A stretch of DNA of 64,000 bases, from the NCBI RefSeq assembly GCF_014230055.1, contig NZ_JACHVA010000053.1:62001-126000 (forward strand), read 5' to 3'. The notes below the pieces were generated by a model. The model was not told the origin of the DNA. It saw nothing but the letters and a program-made list of their open reading frames with translations, and searched no databases. A program made the position numbers and the translations under genes. Positions 7,332 through 43,746 of this stretch are shown piece by piece (the stretch's first letter is position 1; every line of letters begins with the position of its first letter). The DNA comes from Puniceicoccus vermicola (GTDB lineage: Bacteria > Verrucomicrobiota > Verrucomicrobiia > Opitutales > Puniceicoccaceae).

Positions 7332-10300
7332 CTATTCCACTACTCGCACTCTGAGGAACATAGTTGAAGCTCCTGATGGAATCGAGAAATCGACTTGAAC
7401 GGAATTTCCGTCCACCGATTCGGCCAAACCATCCGCATTATCCCAAGCACCCGAAACCGGGTCGTAGCTGCGAATGGTGTCCCAAGAAACCATATCGCTG
7501 GATTCCTGAATTTGAATGGACACATCGGAAGTAAGTCGACGTTTGAAGCATAGCATAATTTCACCTCCAGAGTTCACCATCTGGACCAGAGAACCCGATT
7601 CTGGATTCACTGGATCTCCGAGCAGAGCGTATTCCAGCGCCACCGAATACCCATCGCCATCCGGATCGTCAGAACCAGTTACCGGTCCGACGGTTAGCGC
7701 CGAGAAATCATAGGAATCGATCCATTCGCTCAAGGTAATTGCCGCGACTTCCGGCAGGGAAATCAGAATGGTTCCGTTCTCGCCCACGGCTACAAATCGA
7801 TCGCCTCCGAAAATCACCTCGTTCAGAGTATTTATTCCGAGACTGATTTCCCGAATCCAACGGCTTGAACTGTCAGCTGGATTGATGGGTTCCAGAATCG
7901 CTTCCTTGGTCGCAGTGAGTACAGAGCCATTCGAGCCGACAACCTTGAATGTTGAGTTTCCAAAGGTAATCGACGAAAGAGTCGGGGAATCGGGGAGGAC
8001 CGATGATGGAATCTCTTTCTGGAACCAAGTAACCCCACCATCCTGAGAATAGAGATAATCGCCATAATTAGTGATTGCGACGAAGAGACCATCACCATAG
8101 GCCACGCTTTTCATCGAATAGGATAAAGTTCCCGTAGTTCGTCTTGTCCAATTCGTCCCAGTGTTAGAAGTCAAGACGGTCCCGGAAAACCCAACCGCAA
8201 CAAACAACGGATTACCACTCGTATTTTCTCCCAAAACCAGATCTGTGAGCGGGTTGGTGGTCGGTAGTGAGCGACGAGTCCAATTAACCCCATTGGCAGA
8301 CGTATGGTAGTTCCCCGAGGCCCCAGTTTCTATGGCCACGAAGAGACCCATACCATACTCGACGGCACCCAAGACGTTAATCGTTGATGCACTGGTTGAG
8401 TTCCAACTCACCCCATTATCTGTTGAATATTGCACGGCTCCATTGAAACCGACTGCAACGAACTTCTCCGCACCATAGGTAACATCATAGAAAATCGGGC
8501 TATTCGGCGCTGGCACCATCGCCTCCCAATTAGAAGGATCAGTAGAAGCTTCAACCGTCCTCGCGATACTTCCCCCTAATGCCACCGCGACAAACTGCCC
8601 GTCACCGTAAGCAGCTCCATAGAAGTTATCGGTCGTATTGACTGGGCCGCGACCGAAGTTTGAAACAGTAAAGGATTGCTCAACCGGATCGGCGGCGAAG
8701 ACATTCACATTTCCACCCTGAGTCGCTTGGACCTTGACGGTCCCGGATGTACCATTGAGCGTCAGCGTGCTTCCTGAAATGGACGCAATATCTGCACCCT
8801 CGACCACCGTGAATGAAATAGGATAGTCCGCCGAAGATGCGGGCGAATCGTTGTCACCAATATAAGTCCGAGCCACCAGCGGTATTGAGATAACACTTCC
8901 CTCAAACTGGTTGTCAATCTCCTCAAACTCTAAGGTCTGGCTCGCTTTTGAAACCGGAACACTCAGCTCTCCGGTCGCGGGTCCATAATCCCCATTTGGT
9001 TCGGCTTCGGCGGTGATTATGATGGTCCCTGAGGAAAGGATGGTCACCGTATTTCCATCGAGGCTCGCGACGGTACTATCCGCAAGAGAGAAGGTCACTT
9101 CGCCTCCACCGTCCGCCGAGGCGTTTAGGACAAACGGCGGATCTCCGAAGGTCTTTGATCCTGGGTCCGAGAAAGTAATGTTCTGCCTGTATCGGGAAAT
9201 GTAGAACGATTGGCGTACCGGTTCTGCCGTCACACCGGAACTCGGGAGAGCATAAGCCTCGAGAATCACTTCACCCTGGGAACCAATCGATCCTTCGATC
9301 GAAACCTCATGGACATAGGTTTCATTCCCATTTCCATCGCTTTGGTAGTAATTCCGCAAAGAGATCAAACTAGCGCCCTGGATAACTTGGATTCCCACAT
9401 CTTCACCATCGGAGGTTGCTGCCTGAATGAAGAAATTTTCATCGCTGAGAAGCTTGTCCGGTATCGCGTTGAAGACGATTTCCGTTTCCTCGGCGGTGAT
9501 GGAGTAAGTTACGGTTTCGGAGAGCGGCGAATAAGTCGCATCTCCAGAGTTGTAGAGCCGGACCACGACGTCACTTCCAACGGCCCCTGGATTCAGGGTC
9601 ATTGAGGTTCCGGAAATCGTCGCGTCTCCACTGACGATTTCGAATTGAACCCCCAATCCCGTCGGATCACTGGTCGTCGCATCAATGGAAGTCGCGGACA
9701 ATCCGATCGGAGACGACGAATAAGAAAGACCTCCTTCAGCAGGGAACAAGTTGGTGTAAGTTTGCGTCTCACCCACTACCGTAAACGACTGGTCGATCCC
9801 CGGCACGGCGAGGTATTCCTCATCCACAGGAAGCGAGGCCCGCACAACATATTCGCCGGGATATCCAGAGACTTCGAGCGTCGCGGTGGTAGAGCCGTCT
9901 CCCTGCAAGGTGCGATCGGTGATCGTTCCGGAACCCGAAACCAGGTTGAATTCGACGAGCTGGTCGGTTGGCGTTCCACCGGCTAGAGCCGTTGCCGTGA
10001 GGGTCGTAGTCAAACCACCCGACGGCGAGGATACCGCGGGAAAATCAAGGGTTCTCTCGATCTTGTTCGGGTTCGACAATCCCGAGGACAAGATGGTTCC
10101 TCCTTCACCCACGATGACAAAGATGGAGTCCCGGTAGGTAATGTCATGAAGATTCTGAGTAGTTCCGCTTTCACGAAGAATCCAAGTCTGACCGTTGTCG
10201 CTGCTGGTGTAAATTACACCGCCATCGCCAACGGTAATAAATCGCCCGCTTCCGTAGGTAGCGGCTTGGAAAGTAACCGGAGCCGGTGACGGCCGAACAC

Positions 10301-13300
10301 TCCAACTATCTCCGCCATTGGCTGAATAGAGAATTCGTCCTTCATTTCCGACCGCGAGAAGCCCTCCGGACGAGTCGACTGCCACAGCATTCAAAGACAT
10401 CGTTTCGCTTGCGAATGATGATACATTCCACGTGTCGCCAAAACTCTCACTGGACACGACCGAATTGCCACCCACTGCGACAAGAGTTCCGTCCGTGTAG
10501 ATGATGTCTTCAAGATCGATTGTTACTCCGCTGTCGAGCGCAGTCCATTCGTCTCCGTTCAAGGATTTCCAAATGGCTCCGCCATCTCCGACGGCGAAGA
10601 ATTCGCCCGCGGCATATACAATGCGATTCAAACTCGGCAAACCGGAATCCGGTAAGAGAAACCAATCTACACCGTTTTCCGAATACATGGGGATTCCCCC
10701 TTCACCCACAGCGAGATAGATGTCCGGGACACCGCCAAAAGCCAGATCCCTAAGTTGTCCGGAACCATTGGCTTGAAGAGCCCAATTTTGACCGTCGGAA
10801 GAGGAAACGACCGTTTCCGCATCACCGACGGCGTAGAAACGGGATCCGGCGAAAGCGACTCCATAGAAATCGTTTGCGGATCCGGAGGTGCGGGTTTGCC
10901 AGACATCTCCGGTCTCCGCAGATTCTACATTGATCTCATCCTCCACCGGAGGGGCTGCTTCGTAATCATCGTCACCGGATTGAGTGGCTTGGACCGTAAC
11001 CGTCCCGCTCCCGTTAAAGGAAAGCTGATCCCCGCCAGTGATCGAAGCCGGGCCACTAATCACGGAGAAAGTGACCTCGAGACCACTCGTCGCCGTTGCG
11101 GTGAGTGTCAAGGGAGGGTCCGCCTCGCCCGCTGACTCAGGCAATTCGAAATCAATCGTCTGGGAGGCCTTGGCTGCCGTGAAGGAGCGAACGGCTTCGG
11201 AGGCCGCTGCAAAGGTATCGTCACCTGATTGGTTTGCAGTGAGAGTTACGGAACCGGCTCCCGTGAGAGTCACGGTCGCGGTACCGTCTGTTTGATCAGA
11301 GATGATGGCAGGACCGGATTCGACGGCGATGAAGGGAACGAGACTCGAGGAGCTCTCGGCGGTCACCGTGAACGCACTCTGCCCGAAGGTCTTCGCCGAG
11401 ATCGATCCCGGTGCCGCCGACGCCGGCTCTCCAAAGAAGTCGATCGTCTGAGCGGAAAGGAGTACCTCAAAGGAGACCTCTACTGGGGTCGCCGCGTCGT
11501 AGCGAACACTCCCCGACTGAGTGGCGCGAACGACCACTGTGCCGGAAACTCCATCGAGAACAATTTCGTCTCCGGAGAGTGTGGCCGGGCCACTCACGAT
11601 CTCGAGAGTCACCGGCAAGCCGCTCGTCGCGATGACCTGAGGTTCAAAGGCGGGATCCGAAACGATCTTATCGCCGATCGGTAAGAAGATGATCTCCTGA
11701 GACTCCCGCTGTTCAATGCGACCCGAAGTTACAATTGTTTGGAAATCTCCGACCAAGGTAAAGACGCCGTTGAAGAAAGCTGCATCGTTGAGCTGATAGT
11801 CGGTGCCAACCGGACGGCTATACCAATCCGACGAGTTATTGGAGGAGAGAACGACCCCATCGGCTCCGGTGGTGATGAAGTTATTTTGCCCGAACGATAC
11901 CGTCCTGAGATCTGCGGAAGTGCCCGATGCGCGTGCAGTCCAGGAAACCCCTTCATCCACCGAAACGTAAATCGCTCCCGATTCTCCGGCGGCTGTCCAA
12001 TATCCGCCCGCCGTCAGGTCGCCGTAACCGATTGCCCAAAGATCTTCGCTGATTCCCGAAGTTTGCGCCGTCCAAGTTTTCCCATCCGGACTGGTAAGAA
12101 CGACACCTTGGTCGCCCACGGCCATGAATTGAGCGTCCGCAAAGAAGATTGAATTCAGATCCGCGACCACCCCATCAGCATCTTCGACCGTCCAAACGGA
12201 GGCTCCGGCGTTGAAGAGGATCGTCGCTTCATCCCCAACGGCGACCAAATTTCCGTTCCCGGATGCAATGCCATTCAGTTGTTTCAGAAGGGGTGGTTCT
12301 GCGGATTGCCACACATCGCCATCCTCCGACAGGAGAATCGTCCCAAAGCTACCGACCGCCGCGAAACCGTTGTCATAAGTCGTCACCGCGTTCAGATCAA
12401 CCTGCCCGGGCAGTTCCGGTATCTCACTCGGCGTCACCCAACGGATTGAATCGTCACTGCGTAAGATCGTACTCGCACCCCCGACGGCGACATACTGGCC
12501 CAAAGAATCCACCGCGACTCCGTTCAAGGGCTGGAGATTTTCCGTAGTGCGAAGCACCCAATATTCCGCATCGTCCGAATAGAGAATCCGCCCGTCGTCT
12601 CCGACCGCAACGTAACTTTGGTTTCCGAACGCCAGGCCATTGAGAGTTTCGGTGATTCCGGGAAAACTGAGAAAACTCGGATCGATTCCTGAAATCGCAC
12701 CATTTTCACCGGCATAGACGAATCCTCCGAATCCATTTCCTTCGGAATAGAGAGAGGCATAGGTGGTGAAACCGCCGACGGACCACGAACCCCATCCATC
12801 GGCGAGAAGATCGTAGACCACCCGCCCAGTTCCAAAGGCGCGGACCACATCATCTCCCGCAGATACGGTGAGGAGGTCTGCGGAGAAATAAACACCGGGC
12901 TCAACCTCCGGACTGATCTGCCTCGTCCAGGTCTGCCCGTCGGTCGAGAAGAACCACTGCGACATCAATTCCGGACCGTCTGGAAGTTCAAAGTTGGCGG
13001 CTTCTCCAACCGCGACCCAGAGCTCATATTCCGGATAGTAGACTGAATCCCACAAAGTCGCAGAGCCATTTACTCCATTGACTGATCCTCCGTCCCAACC
13101 GACTCCATCCGTAGAGTAAAAGATGCTTGAGGCTTCTCCCGTGACCACAAACAGGCCGTCTCCGAACGAAACACTGTTCACGGGAATCGTCCACGTTGTA
13201 ACGACAGTCCAATTCTCTGTATCTGTGGAACTAATCAATTTCTGCCCACCTACGGCGAGGTAAAGACCGTTCCCGTAAGCGACTCCCAACAGATTTTGAG

Positions 13301-15917
13301 TCAGGGGCGTTCCATTCGTTTCCTGAACCGCTCGTTCCTCCCAGTTCTGGCCGTCTTCGGAGACAAGGATTTGACCCGCGTCGCCAACGGCAACGAAACC
13401 GTTATTTCCGTAGACCACATCGTTGATGTTGTCCCCCGCTTCACCGGAGTAGCGGAAAGTCCACTCTTCGAGTCCGGTCGAGCCGGCAGTCGGCGTGGTT
13501 AGGATTCCCCCAAAGTCGGTGACCGCGACAAAGTTATCGCCGACTACGGTAGCTCCGTAAATCGTATTCTGAGTCGCTGCGACCTGAGATTCCCAACTGC
13601 CACTGTTGTCGGAGACGAGAAGAGCGAATCCCGTTCCGAACGCATAGAAAGTATCGTCGAAATACAAAGCCGCGAAAAGATCTCGGGTAACCGTAGAGAT
13701 GTGGCTCGTCCACGTCGTTCCGTTGGGCGAAGTCAAAATACTCCCGTTCTCGCCGACGGCCAGAAATTCCGAGTCTGAAACGGCTACGGCGTAAAGGTCT
13801 TCATCAACATTCGCAGACCCCTGAGACCAATCCTCGCCATCAAACGAGTAAGCGATTCTTCCCTGATCGCCAACCGCTACGAATTTTCCAGACCTACTGG
13901 AGACACCATTGAGATCAATACTCCCACCCGTGTGCTGTTCCCACACGTCCGCGTCACCTGAAGAAAGTGTCGTCAGCCCATCCCCGACCGCTACGTAGAC
14001 AGACGTGGTCTCATCGTAATGGACGGCATTCAAGTCGCCGGAAAAAGTTCCTCCAAAAATTCCGTTAATACTAGAGGCCAAGTTCCAAGTGGTTCCGTCG
14101 GTTGAATAGTAAATCGAACCACTGGTTCCGACGACGACAAAGTTTCCACCCCCGAAAGTCACGCCCCGGAGGTCTTCGGCTGAAATCGGACTCAGTTGGA
14201 TCCAAGTCGCGCCCTCGTTGCTAGAACGATAGACCTCGCCATCATCCCCGACCGCGACGGAGATGGTGCCATCGGAGGCGACAGATCGAAAGGAAAACGG
14301 GGTGGTCGAATCACGGAGAGTCCAGTCGAATCCGCTTCCGGACGATGCAATGGATTCGTTCTGCCCCACTGCCAAGAGGAGGCCATCGATAAACGCCATC
14401 CCTTGGACATCGAAGCGAAACGGAGTGACCGATTCAACCCATCGGTCGCCGTTGTCGCGGTTCGAACGGATGACTCTCCCGTTTTCCCCGGCGGCGACGA
14501 GATAACGGTCATTGAATTGAATCGAATCCAAATCGTAGTTGGCACCCGTGTTGACGGTGGTCCAAATCGAAGTGGAATTCACTCCAGTGCGGATTACCGT
14601 TCCCCCGTCGCCGACAATGTAGGTAATGCCTTCCGGGGTCGTCAGTCCGTCACGGTAATCCCCACTGAATCCGGCAGCATTCAAGCTCCAGGAACCTGGA
14701 TTCCCGACAAACCAACTTCCCGATTGCCCGACGACCTGCCACGCCCCAATGCCATCGGAGTAGAAAACCCCATTCGGGACGATCGGATAGGCAGGATAGC
14801 TCATGTCCTGGACCCATGCCAACCCGTCGGAAGATCGATAGAGAACGGACTGGCCCCCTGAGCCTGTTCCTACAGTAACGAATTCATTCGTATCGTCGGA
14901 GTATGCGACCGCGCGCAAATTCACCCCGGCAGCAATCCCACTGTTGCCATCGACCCAAGTCGATCCATCCAACGACATAAAGACCGCTGCATCGCTTCCG
15001 ACCGCCACGTAGCGATTACTCCCATAAGCGACCCCTAGCAGGTCACTGCTGACGCCCAAGGCAGGCTCCGTCCATGTGGAAGAGTCGGTCGGGTCGCTTC
15101 CTTCAATAAGGAGGGCTCCAGCACCTACGGCGACAAACTGGGTTCCCGCATCGTTCGCAACAACATCGTAAAGATAATCCGTGAGCGACAACTGGGGTTC
15201 CCGCCAAGTCCAAAGATCGAGAAAACCCGGCCCGCCAGCCGGTTCCTTGCCTCCGACAACGAGGGTTTTGTTCACAAAAGTTGCGGCGACGAGATCCGCT
15301 TCGGGATCGCCAGCATCGTAGCTTGTTTGGTCGGCGAAAGCCTGAAGCTGAATGCCTCCAGCACCATACACATTCACCTCACCGGTATCCCCGTCCACTT
15401 CACCCGGACCATCAATAATCCTAAATCCCCGTGCCTGGCCCACATCCGGGTCCACCTCTACGGTCACGGGAAATGAAGGATCTCCCAAATCGACCGCTGG
15501 AAGATCGACAAAAGAAACCTCCTGTGTGCGGCGGACGGTAAAGGTCCGAGTTTCAGTATCCACCACGGATCCCTCAACGGTGAGGGTGGCGAGAAGAGTC
15601 ACCTGAGCGGAATCGTCTTCACTCACCGAAATGGTCACCTCATTCTCGAGCAACCCAATGGGAACCACCGGCTGCCCACCCCGAGTCGAGGGTAAGACGG
15701 AATCGATGGTGTAGGATACCTCCCCTTCGGATGCAGCAGAGGTAATTTCAAAAGAATCGTCACCAATGACCCGATCAGCGATCGAACCCGAGCCTCCGGA
15801 GCCCTCTTCTCCGAAAAAGGTGATCTCCTGCCCTTGAAGGGCCGCCGTCCCGACGATCGTGAAGAAAAACAAAACAAGCAGTGAACGCCAGCGGCAGAAA
15901 CAGGGGGGATTGATCAT
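7332..15917 (-). CDS. Giant exported BNR-type beta-propeller / Ig-like repeat protein
   Basis: A 2861-residue protein. The ATG at 15917 is chosen over one 21 bases upstream because AAGGA (complement of 15923-15927) lies five bases before it and the signal peptide (MINPP...VLFFFTIVGTAALQGQ) then starts cleanly. Dozens of roughly 40-residue units of the type YGNGxYVAVGDxGxILxSxDGxxW fill residues about 230-1400, 1670-1940 and 2420-2720, as in Ycf48/BNR-like propellers. Between them lie Ig-like MBG-type units with KASQTIDF-like starts (about 1400-1670 and 1960-2400). The C-terminus has a DPDGDGYSVALEYALLGDP module common in Verrucomicrobia secreted proteins. No PEP-CTERM or LPXTG-type anchor is visible. 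A surface or adhesion role is only a guess. Confidence 0.85.
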   Translation of the reverse strand: MINPPCFCRWRSLLVLFFFTIVGTAALQGQEITFFGEEGSGGSGSIADRVIGDDSFEITSAASEGEVSYTIDSVLPSTRGGQPVVPIGLLENEVTISVSEDDSAQVTLLATLTVEGSVVDTETRTFTVRRTQEVSFVDLPAVDLGDPSFPVTVEVDPDVGQARGFRIIDGPGEVDGDTGEVNVYGAGGIQLQAFADQTSYDAGDPEADLVAATFVNKTLVVGGKEPAGGPGFLDLWTWREPQLSLTDYLYDVVANDAGTQFVAVGAGALLIEGSDPTDSSTWTEPALGVSSDLLGVAYGSNRYVAVGSDAAVFMSLDGSTWVDGNSGIAAGVNLRAVAYSDDTNEFVTVGTGSGGQSVLYRSSDGLAWVQDMSYPAYPIVPNGVFYSDGIGAWQVVGQSGSWFVGNPGSWSLNAAGFSGDYRDGLTTPEGITYIVGDGGTVIRTGVNSTSIWTTVNTGANYDLDSIQFNDRYLVAAGENGRVIRSNRDNGDRWVESVTPFRFDVQGMAFIDGLLLAVGQNESIASSGSGFDWTLRDSTTPFSFRSVASDGTISVAVGDDGEVYRSSNEGATWIQLSPISAEDLRGVTFGGGNFVVVGTSGSIYYSTDGTTWNLASSINGIFGGTFSGDLNAVHYDETTSVYVAVGDGLTTLSSGDADVWEQHTGGSIDLNGVSSRSGKFVAVGDQGRIAYSFDGEDWSQGSANVDEDLYAVAVSDSEFLAVGENGSILTSPNGTTWTSHISTVTRDLFAALYFDDTFYAFGTGFALLVSDNSGSWESQVAATQNTIYGATVVGDNFVAVTDFGGILTTPTAGSTGLEEWTFRYSGEAGDNINDVVYGNNGFVAVGDAGQILVSEDGQNWEERAVQETNGTPLTQNLLGVAYGNGLYLAVGGQKLISSTDTENWTVVTTWTIPVNSVSFGDGLFVVTGEASSIFYSTDGVGWDGGSVNGVNGSATLWDSVYYPEYELWVAVGEAANFELPDGPELMSQWFFSTDGQTWTRQISPEVEPGVYFSADLLTVSAGDDVVRAFGTGRVVYDLLADGWGSWSVGGFTTYASLYSEGNGFGGFVYAGENGAISGIDPSFLSFPGITETLNGLAFGNQSYVAVGDDGRILYSDDAEYWVLRTTENLQPLNGVAVDSLGQYVAVGGASTILRSDDSIRWVTPSEIPELPGQVDLNAVTTYDNGFAAVGSFGTILLSEDGDVWQSAEPPLLKQLNGIASGNGNLVAVGDEATILFNAGASVWTVEDADGVVADLNSIFFADAQFMAVGDQGVVLTSPDGKTWTAQTSGISEDLWAIGYGDLTAGGYWTAAGESGAIYVSVDEGVSWTARASGTSADLRTVSFGQNNFITTGADGVVLSSNNSSDWYSRPVGTDYQLNDAAFFNGVFTLVGDFQTIVTSGRIEQRESQEIIFLPIGDKIVSDPAFEPQVIATSGLPVTLEIVSGPATLSGDEIVLDGVSGTVVVRATQSGSVRYDAATPVEVSFEVLLSAQTIDFFGEPASAAPGSISAKTFGQSAFTVTAESSSSLVPFIAVESGPAIISDQTDGTATVTLTGAGSVTLTANQSGDDTFAAASEAVRSFTAAKASQTIDFELPESAGEADPPLTLTATATSGLEVTFSVISGPASITGGDQLSFNGSGTVTVQATQSGDDDYEAAPPVEDEINVESAETGDVWQTRTSGSANDFYGVAFAGSRFYAVGDAETVVSSSDGQNWALQANGSGQLRDLAFGGVPDIYLAVGEGGIPMYSENGVDWFLLPDSGLPSLNRIVYAAGEFFAVGDGGAIWKSLNGDEWTALDSGVTIDLEDIIYTDGTLVAVGGNSVVSSESFGDTWNVSSFASETMSLNAVAVDSSGGLLAVGNEGRILYSANGGDSWSVRPSPAPVTFQAATYGSGRFITVGDGGVIYTSSDNGQTWILRESGTTQNLHDITYRDSIFVIVGEGGTILSSGLSNPNKIERTLDFPAVSSPSGGLTTTLTATALAGGTPTDQLVEFNLVSGSGTITDRTLQGDGSTTATLEVSGYPGEYVVRASLPVDEEYLAVPGIDQSFTVVGETQTYTNLFPAEGGLSYSSSPIGLSATSIDATTSDPTGLGVQFEIVSGDATISGTSMTLNPGAVGSDVVVRLYNSGDATYSPLSETVTYSITAEETEIVFNAIPDKLLSDENFFIQAATSDGEDVGIQVIQGASLISLRNYYQSDGNGNETYVHEVSIEGSIGSQGEVILEAYALPSSGVTAEPVRQSFYISRYRQNITFSDPGSKTFGDPPFVLNASADGGGEVTFSLADSTVASLDGNTVTILSSGTIIITAEAEPNGDYGPATGELSVPVSKASQTLEFEEIDNQFEGSVISIPLVARTYIGDNDSPASSADYPISFTVVEGADIASISGSTLTLNGTSGTVKVQATQGGNVNVFAADPVEQSFTVSNFGRGPVNTTDNFYGAAYGDGQFVAVALGGSIARTVEASTDPSNWEAMVPAPNSPIFYDVTYGAEKFVAVGFNGAVQYSTDNGVSWNSTSASTINVLGAVEYGMGLFVAIETGASGNYHTSANGVNWTRRSLPTTNPLTDLVLGENTSGNPLFVAVGFSGTVLTSNTGTNWTRRTTGTLSYSMKSVAYGDGLFVAITNYGDYLYSQDGGVTWFQKEIPSSVLPDSPTLSSITFGNSTFKVVGSNGSVLTATKEAILEPINPADSSSRWIREISLGINTLNEVIFGGDRFVAVGENGTILISLPEVAAITLSEWIDSYDFSALTVGPVTGSDDPDGDGYSVALEYALLGDPVNPESGSLVQMVNSGGEIMLCFKRRLTSDVSIQIQESSDMVSWDTIRSYDPVSGAWDNADGLAESVDGNSVQVDFSIPSGASTMFLRVRVVE

Positions 15918-15922
15918 AATTT

Positions 15923-15927
15923 TCCTT
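15923..15927 (-). promoter_or_regulatory. Ribosome binding site deciding the giant gene's start
   Basis: AAGGA on the minus strand, five bases before the ATG at 15917. It lies inside the longer reading frame that would start at 15938, so it argues for the shorter protein. Confidence 0.6.
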
Positions 15928-16107
15928 AAGTCGCCCATCTAGAAGGAATTAAAGGCTCTAATTTCTTGCGAATCATACAACCCTCAAGCTCTGCTTCAAG
16001 CCAACAAAGGAGCACCGCGGGCGTTGACTCAAATTTTACATATACGGGTCAATTTCCTCTAACGCGGAGCTAGTCTCTCGCATTCACAAATCCCATTACC
16101 CTTCAAT

Positions 16108-17829
16108 TTGCGAACGGCATCCTTTTTGGACATTGACCGAATTTTAGAGCAACCATACCATTTCGGCTCAGTGACGCAAGCTCCGCCCCCTTCGCCTGAA
16201 AGAAATCTCATTCCGGAACCGGATCGTCTGGATTCTGGACTCAAGGACTTTCTCCGACTCTCTGGAGGGAATATCCTTTACTGCCTAAGTGCGCTTTCGG
16301 TCCTTTACGGGATCGCTGAGATCCTCGGCCCTCAACTGTTGAAGTCGACGGACTCCACTTCCGGTTTTCTGTGTGTCGGCGCGCTCAACGCCTACGAGCT
16401 GTCCGTGCTCGGGATCTTGATCTTCATCGTGGTGGTGCATCGGGTCATGGACGATGCCGTGACCTTGGTGTTGTTGATTCCTCCTTTTTTGGTGGGTAGC
16501 GCCGTAGCATTGGTGACAATCGCCTACAACAATCCTGAGCTGGCGCTTTCGATCGGGGCCGTCTGCGCGGCCGTCGGAATTGGGAAGATCGAAGCTCTCC
16601 GCCGTTGGATCGGTCTGAGGGTGAATTGGATCGCCTTCATCGGACTCGGCCTGGTCGTGGTCTGGAACTTTCTCACTGGAGTCCTTCTAGTCAAAGCTTC
16701 AGTTTCCGACAACGCACCCGATCTGGACACCCGCGGCTGGTGGCTCGCTTGCCTTCTCTTTCTCCTCCTTTCCGGCTTACTGGTCTTGAGCCAAATGATC
16801 CTGGCGGCTGATAAAGAAACAGACCCACGCACGCCCTTTCTCCGGCGCGCGTCTATGTTTCAATGCTTCTCCCTACTCCTTTTCAGCGCACTGGGAATTC
16901 ACCTTTATGCGCTGAGTTATATTTTCCACGTTCCGACCTCTCCAGGCGATTTCCTCCTCTTCGCGACACTATGCACCCTAATGCTCGTGGAAGTCATTTT
17001 CCAATCCACGGAGGATAACGGCGACGCGGCTGCGATCATTGCGGCGTTTCCGCTTTCGCTGGCAGTCGTCGGAGTTTTCAGCGGAGTCTTCTCTGCCCCG
17101 CGAGCACTCAATTTGGAAATTCTCGGTCATCCCCTGAGCTCGGCCATTTTGGGGAGCGTGGGGATGGTGTGGTTCGCCCTGAGAACCAGAAGTCAGGTGA
17201 GCGGATGGGTGGCCGGCGCGTATCTGCTCGGGGTGATATTTTTTATGGGCTACTCCCCCGGAAACCTGTCATCGCTTAACTGGATCTCGTCGGGAACCAC
17301 ACTCGTTATCGCTCTCTTCGTCGGAGGGCTCGTTTTCAAAAAGTCATCCCTGTGTCTCGTCGCCGTTGGGTTGGCGGCCGTCGGATCGACCGAGTTTCCC
17401 GCGTACCGGGACTTCTGGGCGCAACTGGACGTAGGAGCGGGCACCGGAATACTCTGGATTCTCGGACTCGGCTTTGTCTCCATCGCCCTCTGGTTCCGAG
17501 AGGACGACCTTCTCCCCCTCGGAGTCATCAGCGTCGTCATTCTGGTTTTCGCCGCGTTCACCACCTTCGAGCCGGTCCTACAGCCACGCGACTGGGTATC
17601 CATCGCTCTCCTAATCGGAGTCGGACTCGTCCTTTACATGCGCTTCCATCACTTGGCTCTCCCAGTGATTCTCCTGATCCCGATTCTGGAAAGGCTCTGG
17701 AAAGCTGTCGACTCACTTGGAAACTGGTGGTTTGTCATCCTCGGATTTGGCCTTCTCGTCTCCGGAGGCTGGTTTAGCAGCATCAAAGGTCGCCAGGCAA
17801 AGGCGGAAGAATTGCAAGATGAAGGCTGA
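16108..17829 (+). CDS. Polytopic membrane protein, unknown function
   Basis: A 573-residue protein with about 14-16 hydrophobic helices from residue 55 to the end, preceded by a roughly 50-residue soluble Pro-rich N-terminus and followed by a short charged tail. There is no transporter signature I recognise. The overall look (serial helices with few charged loops) resembles DUF2157/DUF2339-type predicted membrane proteins, but that is weak. The start is uncertain: the frame opens with TTG at 16108, and no ATG or clear ribosome site is near. Confidence 0.6.
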   Translation: MRTASFLDIDRILEQPYHFGSVTQAPPPSPERNLIPEPDRLDSGLKDFLRLSGGNILYCLSALSVLYGIAEILGPQLLKSTDSTSGFLCVGALNAYELSVLGILIFIVVVHRVMDDAVTLVLLIPPFLVGSAVALVTIAYNNPELALSIGAVCAAVGIGKIEALRRWIGLRVNWIAFIGLGLVVVWNFLTGVLLVKASVSDNAPDLDTRGWWLACLLFLLLSGLLVLSQMILAADKETDPRTPFLRRASMFQCFSLLLFSALGIHLYALSYIFHVPTSPGDFLLFATLCTLMLVEVIFQSTEDNGDAAAIIAAFPLSLAVVGVFSGVFSAPRALNLEILGHPLSSAILGSVGMVWFALRTRSQVSGWVAGAYLLGVIFFMGYSPGNLSSLNWISSGTTLVIALFVGGLVFKKSSLCLVAVGLAAVGSTEFPAYRDFWAQLDVGAGTGILWILGLGFVSIALWFREDDLLPLGVISVVILVFAAFTTFEPVLQPRDWVSIALLIGVGLVLYMRFHHLALPVILLIPILERLWKAVDSLGNWWFVILGFGLLVSGGWFSSIKGRQAKAEELQDEG

Positions 17830-17939
17830 GAAGCTCAGACCGGTATGGTGAAAAGAAAGGAGAAATGGGAGGTGGCGCAGCTGAACCAGAAGATTAGGCC
17901 ACGCACCGATTTTCTTTCGGCCCTCAGTTATCGAAGAAT

Positions 17940-18302
17940 ATGATGCCCGCTTTCCTCGTCGTTCTCACATTTTCGGTAACCACAGCCCTCAATGTTATCT
18001 ATTGGTATCATGGCGACGAACCGAATCCTTACTGGGAGAGTATTCTATTCTGCGTTTTAGCAGCCGTATGGGTAAAACTGGACTCGGAGCGGAGAAAAAT
18101 TCATTTCCCGACGGACTGGGTTTTGTTTTTCGGTGCAATCTACTTCCCCATCTACGTTTTTTATACCCGAGGCTGGAAAGGCGTATACACAATCCTGAGT
18201 CTCATCGGACTTTTTACCTGCTTCTCCATGCTCGAATACGGAATTGAGTCATTGATCTATATCTTTGTCTTCGATGGGGATATCTCGGAACTCTATCCAT
18301 AG
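17940..18302 (+). CDS. Small membrane protein, unknown function
   Basis: A 120-residue protein with three or four hydrophobic helices (about residues 2-18, 32-45, 55-75, 80-110), starting at ATG ATG (17940). There is no recognisable family. It stands alone downstream of the larger membrane protein, separated by 110 bases. Hydrophobicity and an intact frame are the main support. Confidence 0.5.
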   Translation: MMPAFLVVLTFSVTTALNVIYWYHGDEPNPYWESILFCVLAAVWVKLDSERRKIHFPTDWVLFFGAIYFPIYVFYTRGWKGVYTILSLIGLFTCFSMLEYGIESLIYIFVFDGDISELYP

Positions 18303-18466
18303 GGAACCATTGTTTTTGTTATTCGGTTCCTGGTTTTCATTTTCCTAATTTTCCGCGCCTCTGAATCGAGAGAAAAACCAGTCGAGCTGGTAACCGCTGA
18401 TGACCCCTTATTTCGTCCAGTGCGGGGAGTCTTGGAACGAAATGATCTGATTGTTCTCGGTGTTTC

Positions 18467-18541
18467 GGGAGCGCAGCGCTTCAGCCTGCGGGCGGAACCC
18501 GAAGAATGTACCGAAAACGCGGGCTGAAGCACCGCGCTCCC
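18467..18541. repeat. REP-like imperfect palindrome
   Basis: The arms 18467-18490 and 18518-18541 are reverse complements at 21 of 24 positions and enclose 27 bases. They contain GGGAGCGC and GCTTCAGCC. It lies in a 419-base gene-free gap (18303-18721) and resembles bacterial REP/BIME elements. No coding potential is seen across it. The rest of the gap shows nothing I can name. Confidence 0.6.
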
Positions 18542-18721
18542 TGAACCTCTGCGTGCTCTTCTCACAAAATGGCTGCAATTGCCAGGTGAAGTCCACGCAC
18601 TTCTAATTGCACCTCTTATTTCCGCTTATGGGAAAAATCCTAGGTTATTGACCATAAATGGAGCATCCGATAATGAAACCTCTGCGCATTCTAGACTGAA
18701 ACCTGCCTCTCCGTATCGATA

Positions 18722-19006
18722 ATGAAATACTACCCTCCCGTCCTTGTCGTCCTGCGGCTCGCTGCAGTGGTTATCATCCTTTTCTATCTCTACCGGCTCT
18801 TTGACACTTGGCTGACCCTCTCCCCTGGAGTCGGAGCCGTCAGATCTGATATAGGTAGTTTGGTCCGTTTTCAACGGGATCAAACCATGATGAAGAGTCT
18901 GATCACCGCTGTTGCGGGGGCGGTTCTATATGGAGTCGCGCCTTACCTCGCACGTCTTATCGTCTTGGGGGCAGAAACAAATCGATCTGAAGACGCGAAT
19001 CGTTGA
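18722..19006 (+). CDS. Small two-helix membrane protein
   Basis: A 94-residue protein with two hydrophobic segments (about residues 7-27 and 62-82) and a polar C-terminus. It starts at ATG 18722. No family is recognised. It could be a real small membrane protein, but the neighbourhood is sparse and rich in palindromes, so a chance ORF is not excluded. Confidence 0.4.
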   Translation: MKYYPPVLVVLRLAAVVIILFYLYRLFDTWLTLSPGVGAVRSDIGSLVRFQRDQTMMKSLITAVAGAVLYGVAPYLARLIVLGAETNRSEDANR

Positions 19007-19075
19007 GATCGGCAGAAAAAAGAATTCGCTCGGATTAACTGACATCTGCAGTCGCAGGATTTCTGAGGGGCTACC

Positions 19076-19098
19076 GTCGGGCGCTGAAGCGACCCGAC
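19076..19098. repeat. Short hairpin with REP-like core
   Basis: GTCGGG (19076-19081) pairs with CCCGAC (19093-19098), and the interior CGC-TGAA-GCG forms a nested stem with one bulged A. It carries the same GCTGAAGC core seen in the palindrome near 18.5 kb. It lies in the 256-base gap 19007-19262, which otherwise holds no gene. Confidence 0.45.
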
Positions 19099-19262
19099 CA
19101 CGATTTTCGGGGATGCGCCGTTGGCAACGCTTTCGGATTATCTATTAAAAACCGTGTAATTCTCAGGTCTCGAGCGGCGCTCTCACACCTTTTGCGGATT
19201 CTGCGCCTATTCGCAGCCGACGGTTCTTTCTTCGGGACGAACTGCCCGGTAGCGAGCTTCGC

Positions 19263-19865
19263 CTACCAGGTGAGATATCCCTGAAAACCTTTAACGGCCC
19301 AGACAGAGAAGTTTGAAACCCCGTGAGCGATGAAGCAGGGCAGAAGAGAGTGGCTTCGATTGCCGAAGGAGAAGCGCACGGCGTAAAACCAGAGGCTGTT
19401 CACGAGGACGAAAACGGTGCTGAAGACGCCTTTAGTGGTCCACTCAATCGAGAGGGTGCCGTCTTCCCACGACCAGAGGTAGGGATGAATCAGGGCAAAG
19501 AGGAGGGAAAAGCCGACAACACTCCCGACGAGCCAAGCCTTTCCTTTGTGGTCTACGACAAGATATCCACGGAAAACAATCTCTTCAATGATGGCGGCGG
19601 CGAGGATAGGAATGACGGCGATGGCCGCCATCTCGGTCTGCTCCGCGGTGAGGCCGAGGGCCGATTCGCCCCAGGTTTCCAGTAGCGTAAGAACGAGTCC
19701 ACCGATGCCGGCGATGATAAGAGTGCGAACTGGCGCGGTACTCGCTCCGGGAAATCCTCCCGTTCGTCCACTGCGACAATCCGAAATCCAAAACCACAGA
19801 ACGACAAATGCGATTCCACCGTAAATGAGACCACTCATCCACCCATCCGACTGGAGAAAATTCAT
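19263..19865 (-). CDS. CPBP (CAAX-like) intramembrane metalloprotease
   Basis: A 200-residue membrane protein. The three CPBP/Abi motifs are intact: EEIVFRG (about residue 95, the catalytic Glu pair and Arg), FALIHPYLW (FxxxH) and CFIAHGVSN (HxxxN). About six hydrophobic helices are visible. Family members are intramembrane proteases, some acting in CAAX processing and others in bacteriocin self-immunity; the substrate is unknown here. The start is set at the ATG at 19865. The frame can be extended to 20087, but that would run antisense through the RelE-like gene and gives an unlikely N-terminus. Confidence 0.8.
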   Translation of the reverse strand: MNFLQSDGWMSGLIYGGIAFVVLWFWISDCRSGRTGGFPGASTAPVRTLIIAGIGGLVLTLLETWGESALGLTAEQTEMAAIAVIPILAAAIIEEIVFRGYLVVDHKGKAWLVGSVVGFSLLFALIHPYLWSWEDGTLSIEWTTKGVFSTVFVLVNSLWFYAVRFSFGNRSHSLLPCFIAHGVSNFSVWAVKGFQGYLTW

Positions 19866-19962
19866 GCCCGGAGTCAAAAAGCCCCTTTTGCAGAAGGGAA
19901 GACTTTTCGGCTCTGAGTGCGCTTTGGATTTGCCAGTCTGGCTCCGAGGTCCATTCTCAAAG

Positions 19963-20325
19963 ATGACGAACCCCATGTTCCAAGTAAATTTCAGCGAACA
20001 GAGCATCCGCCAACTGGACGAACTCGATAAGTTCATCCAGATGGGCCTGGTTGAACAGATCAGCTCCCTAACGGCAGAAAGACTCAAACAACTCGACGAG
20101 ACTCTCGGGCGATTCCATCGAAACGGCCGGACACTCTACCGGCTGCGTGCGGGCGAGTACCGCCTCTATTTCGAGCGCCAGGAAGGCATGCTCTTCTGCC
20201 ACTATGTCCTCCACAAGAATACCCTGACCGATTTTATCTACCGGTTTAAGCTCCCGATCTCGGAGGAACAGATGCTCGAACAGCACGATTCCTTCTGGAA
20301 ATATCTCGAGACCCTGAAGAAGTGA
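19963..20325 (+). CDS. RelE/ParE-like small protein
   Basis: A 120-residue protein (ATG 19963; a second ATG at 19975). The central part RTLYRLRAGEYRLYFER, then CHYVLHKN and FIYR, follows the beta-strand pattern of the RelE/ParE fold, where a basic surface contacts RNA or a partner. An N-terminal helix and a longer C-terminal helix flank it. No antitoxin gene is adjacent: the next genes are a divergent protease and dnaN. A stand-alone role is therefore possible, and the toxin label should not be taken as shown. It ends eight bases before a DnaA-box sequence. Confidence 0.5.
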   Translation: MTNPMFQVNFSEQSIRQLDELDKFIQMGLVEQISSLTAERLKQLDETLGRFHRNGRTLYRLRAGEYRLYFERQEGMLFCHYVLHKNTLTDFIYRFKLPISEEQMLEQHDSFWKYLETLKK

Positions 20326-20596
20326 TCCCTGTTGTGAATAACCTCGGAATAACCTTGTTCAGAAAACCGGAAGCGGTCCCGACAACTTTCTTTTCTTCCC
20401 ATTCGGTCCGGTTCGTTCGCGCTGGAATCGCCAACTTCTTCCGACCTCTGATCCAGTCGAAATTTTTTCCTGTCAACGACTTGGAGACTTGTTCACGCTC
20501 TTCCCAGACCATAATAAGAAGAATAGAGAACTATTTATTTTCTTCCTATTATTCCCCTGATTCGTTTTCTTCCGTTCTTTCAACACCAGCCAGCAC
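20326..20596. other. Putative chromosomal replication origin (oriC)
   Basis: A 271-base gene-free region directly before dnaN. It holds a perfect DnaA-box consensus on the minus strand (TTATTCACA, 20333-20341), a two-mismatch box (TTGTTCACG, 20489-20497) and an AT-rich stretch (20511-20556) that could be the unwinding element. Hand-counted samples show the plus strand changing from C-rich to G-rich across the surrounding few kilobases, as at an origin. dnaA itself is not in the window, and only one perfect box is seen, so this stays a prediction. Confidence 0.55.
20333..20341 (-). promoter_or_regulatory. DnaA box
   Basis: TGTGAATAA on the plus strand, i.e. TTATTCACA on the minus strand, an exact match to the TTATNCACA consensus. 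It sits in the gap before dnaN. Confidence 0.5.
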
Positions 20597-21727
20597 ATGA
20601 AATTTAAAGTAAACCGAGACCACTTCAGCAATGGATTGAATCAGGTGCTTAACGTAGTCAGCACCCGCCCCACCATGCCGATCCTGAGGAACGTTCTGGT
20701 GGAGGCATCGAACGGCGTCGTGACCTTCAAGACGACCAATCTCGATCTGGCCATCCGCTGCTCGATCAAAGCCGAGGTGGAGGAAGAAGGCGGTCTGACC
20801 CTTCCGGTGCGGAAGCTCTCGTCGATCGTCCGCGAATTGCCGAATTTGGAAGTTTTCGTGGAAACGGACTCCAAGCCATCCGCCAAAATCAAGAGCGGCG
20901 GATCGAAATATCAGATCGTCGGCATTGCTGCGGACGAGTTCCCTCCCCTGCCGACTTTCGACGACCAGCACGAGTTCACCCTCCCGCAGGAGGACGTCTC
21001 CTCGATGCTGCGGAGTGTTTCCTACGCCCAGTCCACGGACGAGACCCGCTACATCCTGAACGGGGTGTTCTTCAATTTTGCCGACGACAAGCTGACGATG
21101 GTGGCCACGGATGGTCGCCGTTTGGCAATGGTCGGTTTCGACGTTCCGGTCGACGACGGTCAGGCGGGGCATCTCATTCTCCCAGCGAAAACGGTAGCCG
21201 AGCTCGAGCGTTTGCTGGGTCAGGGGGACTCGGTCAAAATCTCCTTCAACGATCGTCAGGTCGCTTTCGAAGTGGAGTTGAGCGATTCCTCGAAGGAGAG
21301 CGGCTTGGTGGAAAATCTTTATCTCGTCTCGAAGACGGTCGAAGGACGTTACCCGGACTACCAGCAGGTGATTCCGAAGGAAACGGAGCATCGGGTCCGG
21401 ATTGAACGGGAACTCTTGCAGGAATGCGTTCACCGTGCGGCTCTCGTCATCAGCGAAAAGAGCAACTCGGTGAAGTTGAAGATTTCGGAGAACCTCTTGG
21501 AAATCAGCGGACGCAGTGCGGAATACGGGGAATCCCACGAGTCGATGGCGATCAAGTATGACGGGCCGGAAGTGCAAATCGCCTTCAACCCGCAGTTCCT
21601 TCTCGATCCCCTCAAAGCGGTTCATCAAGACGAGGTTTACCTCGAATTCAAGGACGAGCTGAGCCCGGGTGTCTTCAAGACACTGGAGAATTTCCTCTGC
21701 GTGGTGATGCCGTTGCGCCTGAATTGA
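20597..21727 (+). CDS. dnaN: DNA polymerase III subunit beta (sliding clamp)
   Basis: A 376-residue protein of normal length for the bacterial clamp, with three similar domains of about 120 residues. Recognisable stretches include the N-terminal [20 protein letters not shown], the domain-1 ending [26 protein letters not shown] with [11 protein letters not shown] (domain 2), and the C-terminal VVMPLRLN, which matches the conserved MPxRL hydrophobic-cleft tail. The clamp forms a dimeric ring that tethers polymerase to DNA. The start ATG at 20597 has no clear ribosome site. A gene for a membrane-anchored protein and hisC follow on the same strand. Its location beside the putative origin fits the common link between oriC and dnaN. 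Confidence 0.97.
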
Positions 21728-21787
21728 TTCACCTCTGCGAACAGATTGGGTCGGCTGGCTTCCACACAAGCCAGAGGCGGTCGGAGA

Positions 21788-22678
21788 ATGAGTAACCTGA
21801 TCGCCGGATATTTGGTGATGGGGTTGGCTGCGATGCTGTTCCTCATCTCCTTTCGGATCCGCAAATCGCCGACCTTTCCGCTGGTTCTTCTGAACCGTTG
21901 GCTGCGTTGGGTTCTTTTCGGTCTGGGCATGGCCTATGTCCTCCGGGAATGGGGAGTGAGCGGGCGACCATTCTGGTCGTTGGCTCCAACGTTCATGCTC
22001 CTGTGGATCCTCGTTGAGAGCATCTACGCGTGGTTGGCAGTGCGGGCGTTGAGCCTGAGTAATCTGCCGGTCTTCCCCTCGTACCGAGCTGCCTCGGGAG
22101 ATGTGAACTGGCCGGTGGAGGACAGCTATCTCAAGGTGAAGGAGGAGATTCGCAGTGAAGGGTTTACCCTGCAGGAAAAGCTGAGTGCAAAGCTCGGCGA
22201 ACACATGACTCTCCAGTCGCTTCTCTACACCGATGAGTCCAAGCAGATCCGTCTCCAGGTGATTTTTGCGCCGCGCTCCACCGGGCGACCCGCGTTGTTT
22301 TTCATCTTCACCAGCAAGGTGGGCGAACAGCGCTGGGCCACTGACAACGTCTGGCTGCCCTTTGGCGGGGTTTTCCCGGCTCATTGGTCCGTGGACCGCC
22401 GTCCCTTCATTAGCTCGCCGAGAACGCTGCTTCAGAGGCATCGGAGGAAGTTGTCGAAAAGCGGCGTCGAGCCGGAACTTTTCGAGGAGGATTTGGTCGA
22501 TGAGTTGAACGACGAGCAGGAGGTGCTGGACCGGGTGAGCACGGAGCATGGAATCTTGGTGCCCCGGGGCCAACGGCCGGAGTTTGGGAAGTTGACCGGA
22601 GACGGCCGTTACCGTGTCTGGAAGCAGATCCTGCTCCTCAACTATTTTGGAAAAGCCGGCCGGAAGGATGTCAGATGA
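21788..22678 (+). CDS. Membrane-anchored protein, unknown function
   Basis: A 296-residue protein with three hydrophobic helices in the first 90 residues and a soluble C-terminal domain of about 200 residues (polar, with FTLQEKLSAKLGE and LFFIFTSKVGEQRWATDNVW segments). No family is recognised. The ATG at 21788 is preferred over a TTG at 21746 because it opens directly with the first helix. The stop overlaps the hisC ATG by four bases, so the two are probably translationally coupled, although no functional link is evident. Confidence 0.7.
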   Translation: MSNLIAGYLVMGLAAMLFLISFRIRKSPTFPLVLLNRWLRWVLFGLGMAYVLREWGVSGRPFWSLAPTFMLLWILVESIYAWLAVRALSLSNLPVFPSYRAASGDVNWPVEDSYLKVKEEIRSEGFTLQEKLSAKLGEHMTLQSLLYTDESKQIRLQVIFAPRSTGRPALFFIFTSKVGEQRWATDNVWLPFGGVFPAHWSVDRRPFISSPRTLLQRHRRKLSKSGVEPELFEEDLVDELNDEQEVLDRVSTEHGILVPRGQRPEFGKLTGDGRYRVWKQILLLNYFGKAGRKDVR

Positions 22679-23775
22679 GGGAAGAAGAATGGCTAGATGA
22701 GAAGATCCGGGCCTGCCCGATCTATGAACCGGGTCTTCCGATCGAAACGGTAGCACGAAATCTTGGTCTCGATCCGGCCAAAATCGTCAAGCTCGCTTCG
22801 AATGAAAACCCATTGGGGCCCTCACCCCGAGCGGTCGAGGCGGTTTCGAGATGTTTACAGAGCCTCCATGATTATCCGGATGGCGGGACTTTCCGTTTTC
22901 GGGAGAAATTGTCGCAAAAGCTAGGCTTGGATCCGTCCCAGATTTTGCCGGGCAATGGTTCCAATGAAATTTTGGAGATGCTGGCTACGGCTTATCTCAA
23001 GCCCGGGCAGAATGCGGTTTTCGGACAATACGGATTTGTCGTCTATCGTCTTGCGACTCTTCACGCAAAAGCGGAAATGCGTCCGGCGGCGATGCCCGAT
23101 TTGGTGCACGACCTCGACAAGATGCGGGAGCTGATTGATGAGGATACGCGGTTGGTCTTCCTCGCGAACCCAAATAACCCGACGGGTGATTTTCTTGAGC
23201 CCGAGAAAATCATCTCCTTTGTCAAGAGCCTCCCGGAGCAGGTTCTTTTCTGTCTCGATGAGGCCTATGTCGATTATTCGGAGGATCCGGTTGATCTTCG
23301 TCCTTTGATCCGGGAAGGCCGACGAGTGATCTGCATGAGAACTTTCTCGAAGATTCACGGGCTGGCTGGGTTGCGGATCGGCTATGCCTATTCCACCCCC
23401 GAGGTGATTGCGAATCTGCAACGAGTGCGCCAGCCGTTTAATGTGAGTTCGGCGGCCCAAGCTGGTGCTTTGGGCGCACTGGATGATGAAGAGCATCAAA
23501 TCAAAACCCGTAAGCTCAATCGGGAATCTTTGGATTATCTGGAAGGCGCCTTGCAATCTCTTGGCGTGCCGGTTCGAAGAACTCAGGCCAACTTTGTCCT
23601 GATCGAAGTTCCCTCCGGAAAGGATTGTTTTGATTCGTTGCTTCGGGAGGGAGTGATTGTCCGTCCTCTCGGTGGCTACGGTTTGCCCAAACATATTCGG
23701 GTTTCGACGGGGACTATGGAACAGAACCAGCTGTTCATGGAGGTATTTAGCCGTTGGTTTCATAATCTCAAATGA
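22675..23775 (+). CDS. hisC: Histidinol-phosphate aminotransferase
   Basis: A 366-residue PLP enzyme of fold type I. It converts histidinol phosphate and 2-oxoglutarate to imidazole acetol phosphate and glutamate (reversible; the biosynthetic direction is the reverse), in histidine synthesis. Visible are LASNENPLGPSP near the N-terminus (substrate lid), NPNNPTG (about residues 165-171), LDEAYVDY (Asp binding the PLP pyridine) and TFSKIHGLAGLRIGY with the PLP lysine at 226. The terminal RVSTGTMEQN segment carries the conserved carboxylate-binding Arg. No other his genes are nearby. Some relatives act on aromatic amino acids, so substrate is the main uncertainty. It overlaps both neighbours by four bases. 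Confidence 0.9.
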   Translation: MREEEWLDEKIRACPIYEPGLPIETVARNLGLDPAKIVKLASNENPLGPSPRAVEAVSRCLQSLHDYPDGGTFRFREKLSQKLGLDPSQILPGNGSNEILEMLATAYLKPGQNAVFGQYGFVVYRLATLHAKAEMRPAAMPDLVHDLDKMRELIDEDTRLVFLANPNNPTGDFLEPEKIISFVKSLPEQVLFCLDEAYVDYSEDPVDLRPLIREGRRVICMRTFSKIHGLAGLRIGYAYSTPEVIANLQRVRQPFNVSSAAQAGALGALDDEEHQIKTRKLNRESLDYLEGALQSLGVPVRRTQANFVLIEVPSGKDCFDSLLREGVIVRPLGGYGLPKHIRVSTGTMEQNQLFMEVFSRWFHNLK

Positions 23776-43044: not shown

Positions 43045-43746
43045 GGCTCAGGTCGTTTTACGAAGTATCTGGACGGGCCCTGTTCAGAAGTTGGGAGACA
43101 TCCGGTTCGGAAGCGCTTAAATTTGGTGCAGAAGCGGCAAAATTAGCGTTGCTCAGGCTCATTCCTCGCCCGTTCGGGGGGGGGGTTGGATTGAAGGTCG
43201 CGGTGCTGCAGGAATCGGAGGGTCTCTCGATACGAATCCGATCCATGCGCCTTGCACTGCTTCGATTCTGCGCAGCACCATGACGGTCAAAACTTACTAA
43301 ATTCGGTATAAGGTCTGCCCACTTCGTTGCGCCGACTTATCATCGACCTAGTTCTTTTCTAATTGAAGTGGGCAAGTAGCACTTTTCGGAGCGCGGAATT
43401 TATTCCGCCCCGTTGGAGCGGTTTCGAAGGAGAAGAGCATCTTCGGACTTCCCGAGAATCGATCTGGGTATATGTCGGGCCAATTGAACCCTGCGCTCCA
43501 TTCGTATGTTTACCGAGACGATTTAGGCGAATAAATCTGCACCAACGGACATTCGCCTCTGGAGGGTCTGTTTCTTAAAATGGAGTCGAATAGAAGAAAA
43601 TCGAAGTTTGGATGGTTCTCTTTCACCACTCTCCTTCCCTCCCCTCTCCTCTCCTCTCCTCTCCTCTCCGGTCTGGGTTTCAGCATGAGAACGCATCAGC
43701 GTTTCGACTGGACCCTTTCGAGGGGAACCGAAAAGGTGGTTTCGAC
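43045..43746. other. 702-base gap with simple repeats before mnmE
   Basis: No convincing gene: the short frames here overlap each other and have no family features. It contains ten consecutive G (43176-43185), a 7-bp palindrome GCGGAAT-TT-ATTCCGC (43393-43408) and five copies of TCTCC (43645-43669). The last lie about 80 bases before the mnmE start. Confidence 0.5.
43645..43669. repeat. Pentanucleotide simple repeat (TCTCC)x5
   Basis: Five exact tandem copies of TCTCC, preceded by further CT-rich sequence. It is upstream of mnmE, in the transcript leader if a promoter lies before it. Such repeats can slip. Confidence 0.9.

Follow-up and report, generated by a model that had tools for sequence, protein, structure and literature searches.

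We propose that the gap upstream of dnaN in Puniceicoccus vermicola, a member of the Opitutales, is the chromosomal origin of replication (oriC), that its activity depends on DnaA, and that dnaA itself has been displaced from it. The window, by which we mean the whole stretch of DNA analysed, comprises 64,000 nucleotides (C53:62001-126000, on a contig of 312,358 bases, or 312 kb), and the gap occupies its positions 20326-20596, between an open reading frame (ORF) of 166 amino acids and the gene for the sliding clamp. We give this reading a probability of about 0.92 because the GC-skew minimum lies close by, the skew of three relatives turns in the interval that holds their dnaN, the gap contains a module of DnaA boxes and DnaA-trios, this module has a single clear occurrence in the genome, parS-like sites are near, and synteny across the phylum agrees. 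The genome is a draft of 5,204,456 bases in 143 unordered contigs (96% completeness), partly read for skew, and the nearest named relative of its DnaN is that of 'Opitutia bacterium UBA4506' (96% identity). Relative genomes, loci and contigs are labelled Gnnn, Lnnn and Cnn, respectively.

In the mechanism we envisage, DnaA produced from a dnaA gene encoded elsewhere would bind two sets of boxes, the minus-facing ones at 20333-20352 and the plus-facing tandem pair at 20489-20506. The tandem boxes would guide DnaA onto the trios at 20512-20526, opening the AT-rich DNA before dnaN, and bidirectional forks would over time have left the plus strand G-rich to the right of the site and C-rich to its left. 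The skew switch, the module with its conservation and single clear occurrence, and the synteny are observed; binding, opening and firing at this site are what we infer. The ancestor would have carried dnaA, oriC and dnaN in a row, and in the Opitutales dnaA would have left while the origin remained with dnaN.

Strand composition across dnaN

Between about 19 and 22 kb the 2-kb GC-skew profile of the window changes sign, being negative before and positive after, and a two-mean least-squares fit places the change point at 21000 (95% interval 20243-22000), with a change statistic of 1360 against a maximum of 643 in 5000 block shuffles. The original prediction had drawn a composition switch around dnaN from hand counts of G and C in 60-base samples; all 14 counts were exact on recount, and the switch stands in the full profile. 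The expectation that a skew minimum would lie within a few kb of 20.4 kb was borne out on contig C53, where the cumulative minimum over all 312 kb falls at C53:83056, which is window position 21056 and inside dnaN. Per 10 kb, skew on this contig runs from -0.04 to -0.12 between 10 and 80 kb and from +0.04 to +0.20 between 80 and 310 kb, the first 10 kb being at +0.02, and the site is flanked by a negative arm of about 70 kb on its left and a positive arm of 230 kb on its right. A mean-centred statistic, a cruder measure, puts the change over the entire contig at about window 32000, a placement that we read as an effect of the unequal arms.

Skew was also resolved by gene strand, with genes taken as the longest ORFs of at least 150 amino acids and the first 10 kb of C53 excluded. 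Third-position skew of the plus strand is -0.20 in plus-strand genes and +0.03 in minus-strand genes to the left of the site and +0.09 and +0.27, respectively, to its right, shifts of +0.29 and +0.24; DNA not covered by genes moves from -0.07 to +0.13. Since third-position skew shifts in genes of both strands, the switch is not a matter of gene orientation, and the earlier claim that it is not simply coding bias holds for both gene orientations and for the uncovered DNA.

Twenty 20-kb samples were read for skew from each of three relatives assembled as single contigs (G007, G037 and G034). Each chromosome has one negative and one positive arm, and in 3/3 the turn from negative to positive falls in the sampled interval containing dnaN (2.24-2.38 Mb in G007, 4.10 Mb to the record end in G037 and 4.32-4.68 Mb in G034), with the reverse turn about opposite. 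In G037 two positive samples lie inside the negative arm, at 2.59 and 3.89 Mb, and the skew to the right of dnaN is weakly positive. A turn from C-rich to G-rich DNA at the site, as looked for in an oriC, was found in the window, on the contig and in these relatives.

Conserved module and neighbouring sites

The gap of 271 bases contains an exact DnaA box, a degenerate one and an AT-rich stretch, as had been read from it originally, together with a module close to dnaN. The features are as follows.

20326-20596, no strand: candidate oriC, the whole intergenic gap from the 166-amino-acid ORF to dnaN (skew change point; box enrichment upstream of dnaN at 57 loci)
20333-20341, minus strand: exact DnaA box TTATTCACA (pattern scan; at a place where relatives have minus-facing boxes)
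20344-20352, minus strand: degenerate DnaA box TTATTCCGA, 2 mismatches, read by eye
20489-20497, plus strand: first of the two tandem DnaA boxes in the module, TTGTTCACG (2 mismatches to TTATNCACA)
20498-20506, plus strand: second tandem DnaA box, degenerate, CTCTTCCCA, 3 mismatches by eye (consensus of relatives TTATTCACA)
20507-20511, plus strand: spacer GACCA
20512-20526, plus strand: five DnaA-trios, TAA TAA GAA GAA TAG
20505-20554, no strand: predicted DNA unwinding element, 74% AT, the least stable 50-mer of the window
20597-21727, plus strand: dnaN, sliding clamp (Pfam PF00712, PF02767, PF02768)

Read through, the module at 20489-20526 is TTGTTCACG CTCTTCCCA GACCA TAATAAGAAGAATAG. The predicted unwinding element ranks first of 63951 positions in the window and 73rd of 312309 on the contig for low stability, and AT-rich, easily opened DNA beside the boxes, as looked for in an oriC, is accordingly present. 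Over the whole window DnaA boxes with at most one mismatch are in no excess (14 against 18.9 expected), and the 2 exact boxes against 0.40 expected were matched by 10 of 100 shuffles. On C53 the rule of a box with at most two mismatches followed by five trios picks out one further place, and on C38, the contig that carries dnaA, it picks out nothing. Directly upstream of the candidate origin, the 166-amino-acid ORF (19825-20325) matched no Pfam or NCBIfam family; judged by eye, the three nearest relatives share a similar end of it.

The comparison with relatives began from 84 dnaN loci (30 + 54). Seven were set aside because a contig end truncated them or their upstream sequence was too short (L026, L062, L067, L075, L078, L081 and L094) and 13 (L100-L112) because they were distant, mostly from other phyla; 64 entered the box comparison, and 57 remained once 7 duplicates had been removed. 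At these 57 loci the exact box TTATNCACA occurs 18 times in the 300 bases upstream of dnaN, once in dnaN and twice from -1500 to -301. With one mismatch allowed, the counts are 101, 37 and 41, or 5.9, 0.59 and 0.62 boxes per kb, so that the 300 bases upstream are ten times denser in boxes; 100 Markov resamples of these bases gave at most 29. At least one such box was found there at 49/57 loci, the minus-facing boxes mostly between -280 and -200 and the plus-facing ones mostly between -220 and -81. Of the box cluster looked for in an oriC, the window itself has one exact copy and degenerate ones; the enrichment is clear at the corresponding place across the 57 loci.

About 110 bases upstream of dnaN the loci share a module with the consensus TTgTTccAg-TTaTTCACA-gccCA-TAATAATAaGA, in which a tandem pair of boxes and a short spacer precede trios whose middle A is conserved in 44, 38 and 41 of 44 aligned sites for the first, second and third trio. 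The basal unwinding system (BUS) has the same layout, as given in the available portion of PMC8287927; it calls for at least three NAN trios within 16 bases of a DnaA box, and here there are five, at a spacing of 14 from the first box. A score matrix built without the window's own family gave 33.5 bits at the site, and the next best place on either strand of the 354 kb scanned reached 19.3. In leave-one-out scanning, 48/57 loci had their best match at -160 to -70 (0.44 expected), the sites having been picked originally within -150 to -20.

A sequence-only model was then based on 44 sites, leaving out 4 sites of the own family and 9 loci where the module was not in its place. It scored the site at E 1.6e-6, and the next matches in the 5.2-Mb genome at E 0.56 and 1.04; one clear match in the draft is what a single origin per chromosome would give. 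The second-best match is on C80 (L239:3173-3281), where two exact DnaA boxes lie 99 bases apart (3173 and 3272). We rejected this pair as an origin, as it lies beside ORFs resembling an IS110-type transposase, HerA and an integrase (named by eye), in DNA of positive skew. To the left of the window, at C53:32755-32983 and about 50 kb from the candidate origin, two exact boxes facing in opposite directions lie 220 bases apart.

A scan of the genome for the parS-like pattern TGTTNCACGTGNAACA with at most one mismatch found two palindromes, both on C53 (106009 and 107829), and none with the reversed pattern as a control. They lie 23-25 kb from the candidate origin.

43612-45102, plus strand: mnmE (trmE), which holds the one-mismatch palindrome
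44009-44024, no strand: parS-like palindrome TGTTCCTCGTGGAACA, one mismatch, in mnmE
45087-46973, plus strand: mnmG (gidA), which holds the exact palindrome
45829-45844, no strand: parS-like palindrome TGTTCCACGTGGAACA, exact, in mnmG

Relatives were scanned with the consensus TGTTTCACGTGAAACA and at most two mismatches. In G007 the 480 kb read contained a single palindrome, 18 kb from dnaN, and 480 kb of G037 likewise one, at 4 kb from the gene; G023 has three at 22-32 kb from dnaN in the 80 kb read; none was found in G034 (480 kb read) or G038 (80 kb read). Since the single ParB_N match of the genome is on C130, the candidate origin showed no parAB-parS cluster. The genes mnmE, mnmG and parAB form a familiar grouping; with mnmE and mnmG side by side at 43612-46973 and ParB_N on C130, it looks broken up here. 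Elsewhere in the window, a very long ORF (7332-15938, 2868 amino acids) with many 'AVGDNGTILTSSDG'-type repeats perhaps encodes a secreted repeat protein.

Location of dnaA and competing explanations

In this genome dnaN is on C53 and the single dnaA on C38, giving the layout of a putative oriC beside dnaN with dnaA elsewhere. Both genes were found in 50 of 52 genomes of the order and are adjacent in none; the nearest pairs are those of the reduced genomes G028 (~12 kb) and G036 (~22 kb). In G007, G037 and G034 the shorter path between the two genes measures 1.02, 1.94 and 0.27 Mb, and dnaA is 0.39, 0.45 and 0.06 of the circle away from the origin, respectively. In four closed chromosomes of the order (G034, G133, G144 and G180) dnaA lies within the first 41 bases, yet the module and dnaN are at another place, 2.1 Mb from it in G133.

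For a wider view 193 genomes of the phylum were searched with the module model, DnaN and DnaA, at a cut-off of E 0.1 per genome, which would yield ~19 chance matches over the set if the rough E-values hold. Within the order the module lies within 400 bases upstream of dnaN in 28/34 genomes, and in 18/24 once the genomes that contributed to the model are left out (10/34, nine identified by locus and G185 judged by its matching dnaN place). Adjacency of dnaA and dnaN was seen in 0/34, the two genes being on the same contig in 8 (0.25-3.7 Mb apart) and on different contigs in 26. Among the matches listed for the other orders of the class (32 genomes searched), the module was at dnaN in 0/27 genomes with dnaN listed and the genes adjacent in 3/25 with both. 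Among those listed for other classes (127 searched), the module was at dnaN in 18/89 with dnaN listed, in 16 of these between dnaA and dnaN, and the genes were adjacent in 37/66 genomes with both. Two loci from the PVC group, L097 and L099, both of them in the model, have the order dnaA, a 261-base gap with the module, and dnaN. The ancestral order was thus probably dnaA-oriC-dnaN, with dnaA lost from the site in the Opitutales and the origin staying behind. In the remaining orders of the class neither the ancestral nor the derived state is clearly seen, and so this history is an inference.

Several observations weigh against an origin at dnaN. The genome being a draft, the skew minimum is that of a single contig, C53. 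Among 20 stretches sampled from nine other contigs, skew is positive on C101 (4/4 stretches) and C80 (2/2) and negative on C127 (3/3) and on C33, C40, C81 and C143 (2/2 each), and two weak candidate turns, rising to positive from values near zero or below, appear at the starts of C47 (-0.04, +0.19 and +0.24 per block over the first 12 kb) and C126 (+0.16, 0.00, -0.04 and -0.01 over the first 20 kb, and positive at 101 kb). The boxes in the gap are weak, with one exact and tandem boxes that differ from TTATNCACA at 2 and 3 positions. When 80 kb around dnaN are considered, the local cumulative minimum lies 1 kb from the midpoint of the gene in G007, 39 kb in G037 and about 8 kb in both G034 and G023. 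Six of the 34 genomes of the order show no module at dnaN, and at dnaN of G038 (C1 around 1445000) no module is seen and the skew does not turn within 80 kb, the origin of that genome probably being located away from its dnaN. Nor is the module tied to dnaN in every lineage, as seven matches away from dnaN in other relatives score below E 1e-3: G159 (7.0e-7), G051 (2.6e-6), G177 (9.7e-6) and G071, G138, G226 and G223 of one family (8.1e-5 to 4.0e-4); if genuine, the module of these lineages other than G051 stands apart from dnaN. Finally, exact boxes are more frequent in the 300 bases upstream of dnaA (23 in 25 loci) than in those upstream of dnaN (18 in 57).

Some of these matches lie away from both genes. 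The strong second module of G051 (C1:1490458-1490514), a genome that also has one at dnaN, is possibly that of a second replicon or a duplicate. Matches apart from dnaN and dnaA are likewise seen at G223:C1:531290-531343, on G071:C34, G138:C75 and G226:C96 (one family of another class) and on G159:C9, and in the G223 family and G159 the origin may have left both genes.

At the 25 of 30 dnaA loci with full flanks, all from the order, a minus-facing box with at most one mismatch lies at -380 to -320 in 25/25 (exact in 18), and a second, exact minus-facing box lies at -94 to -37 in 21/25. The two face the same way, ~270-300 bases apart (L113-L142); the first is surrounded by a conserved block, GTGAATAAcTTGTGnnnAAgTTnnnCTTG, and the own family is without the exact second box. 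Searches for a known RNA upstream of dnaA, between the boxes, returned only tRNAs further up (15/30 loci), and those for a conserved ORF there returned only ORFs further up (25 loci). We read these boxes as probably serving autoregulation of dnaA. They might also be half of a split bipartite origin, in which boxes stood ancestrally on both sides of dnaA and the departing gene of the Opitutales ancestor took along the upstream array, which, now at very different distances from the origin, would still be a distant control element for initiation at dnaN. We consider this rather unlikely.

An origin at dnaA itself, as in most bacteria, with the skew switch at dnaN as the scar of an old inversion or rearrangement, would account for this conservation, and the cumulative skew of C38 does have its minimum just behind dnaA, yet only 1.1 kb from the contig end. 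In G007, G037 and G034, however, the samples flanking dnaA share one sign and the turn from negative to positive is in the dnaN interval. The unwinding module was not found at the 30 dnaA loci searched with the model (best E 0.34), and the parS-like sites are on C53 rather than C38. On skew, module and parS we reject this placement as very improbable.

We regard it as similarly hard to credit that the element is a DnaA-regulated promoter of dnaN and that the true origin lies elsewhere within a few kb. The fairly constant position of the element, at ~-110 of dnaN in most relatives, would suit a promoter, and the skew interval of 20243-22000 leaves room for an origin nearby. Against this, the order of box, spacer and trios matches the published unwinding module (PMC8287927, in the part available), the element lies on the stretch of lowest stability in the window, the same element stands in the dnaA-dnaN gap in other classes, and matrix and model scored nearby intergenic gaps lower. 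That the switch is chance or coding bias, a notion to which the noise of single 60-base samples, some of them neutral, lends a little colour, is already refuted by the block shuffles and by the shift in both gene orientations and uncovered DNA.

Should oriC lie at dnaN, coverage-based estimates of growth rate and analyses of replichores in the Opitutales would have to be anchored there instead. Because the distance between dnaA and the origin differs so greatly among relatives, the order would also constitute a natural experiment on whether the position of dnaA, and with it the dosage, affects the timing of initiation.

Relation to known origins

The module resembles the BUS of Bacillus subtilis and of most predicted bacterial origins, in which, as far as the consulted portion of PMC8287927 describes them, the boxes are often tandem and are followed, after a short spacer, by repeated trios whose middle base is A. 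That source takes the E. coli box TTATCCACA as default and limits the better box to 2 mismatches. The present case differs in that dnaA does not adjoin, and the better box of the window differs from the clade box at 2 positions and, counted by eye, from that of E. coli at 3, which is above the limit. Bipartite origins flanking dnaA, as in B. subtilis and Helicobacter pylori (PMC4285127, seen in part), likewise have boxes conserved upstream of both dnaA and dnaN; here, in contrast, a long distance separates the two sets of boxes (249 kb in G023, the sole case with both read on one contig) and the unwinding module is on the dnaN side only.

Within the phylum, Methylacidiphilum infernorum V4 has an origin assigned by GC skew, but 250 nt upstream of dnaA according to the passages of PMC2474590 at hand. 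A study of 12 strains of gut bacteria, Akkermansia muciniphila among them, placed origins by the parS cluster and skew, much as here, and used proximity of parS as a rule, with the caution that dnaA is not always a marker of the origin; the accessible part of that source (PMC10197239) names no species for the mismatch and mentions neither dnaN nor the Opitutales. Among the matches listed in the literature searched, whose scope left out most subscription journals and the DoriC tables, there was no report of an Opitutales or Verrucomicrobia origin beside dnaN.

The closest counterpart is the dnaN-linked oriC of cyanobacteria. In Synechococcus elongatus PCC 7942, according to the sections of PMC7198777 and PMC6323995 available, oriC likewise lies beside dnaN at the GC-skew turn with dnaA separate, and DnaA binds it. 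The box itself differs, being TTTTCCACA there (PMC6323995) against the tandem-box consensus TTATTCACA here, while the layout is alike. The cyanobacteria are an unrelated phylum, whereas here the order dnaA-oriC-dnaN is still present in other classes of the same phylum. The layout is thus already known from cyanobacteria, and the Opitutales case would be a new member by layout.

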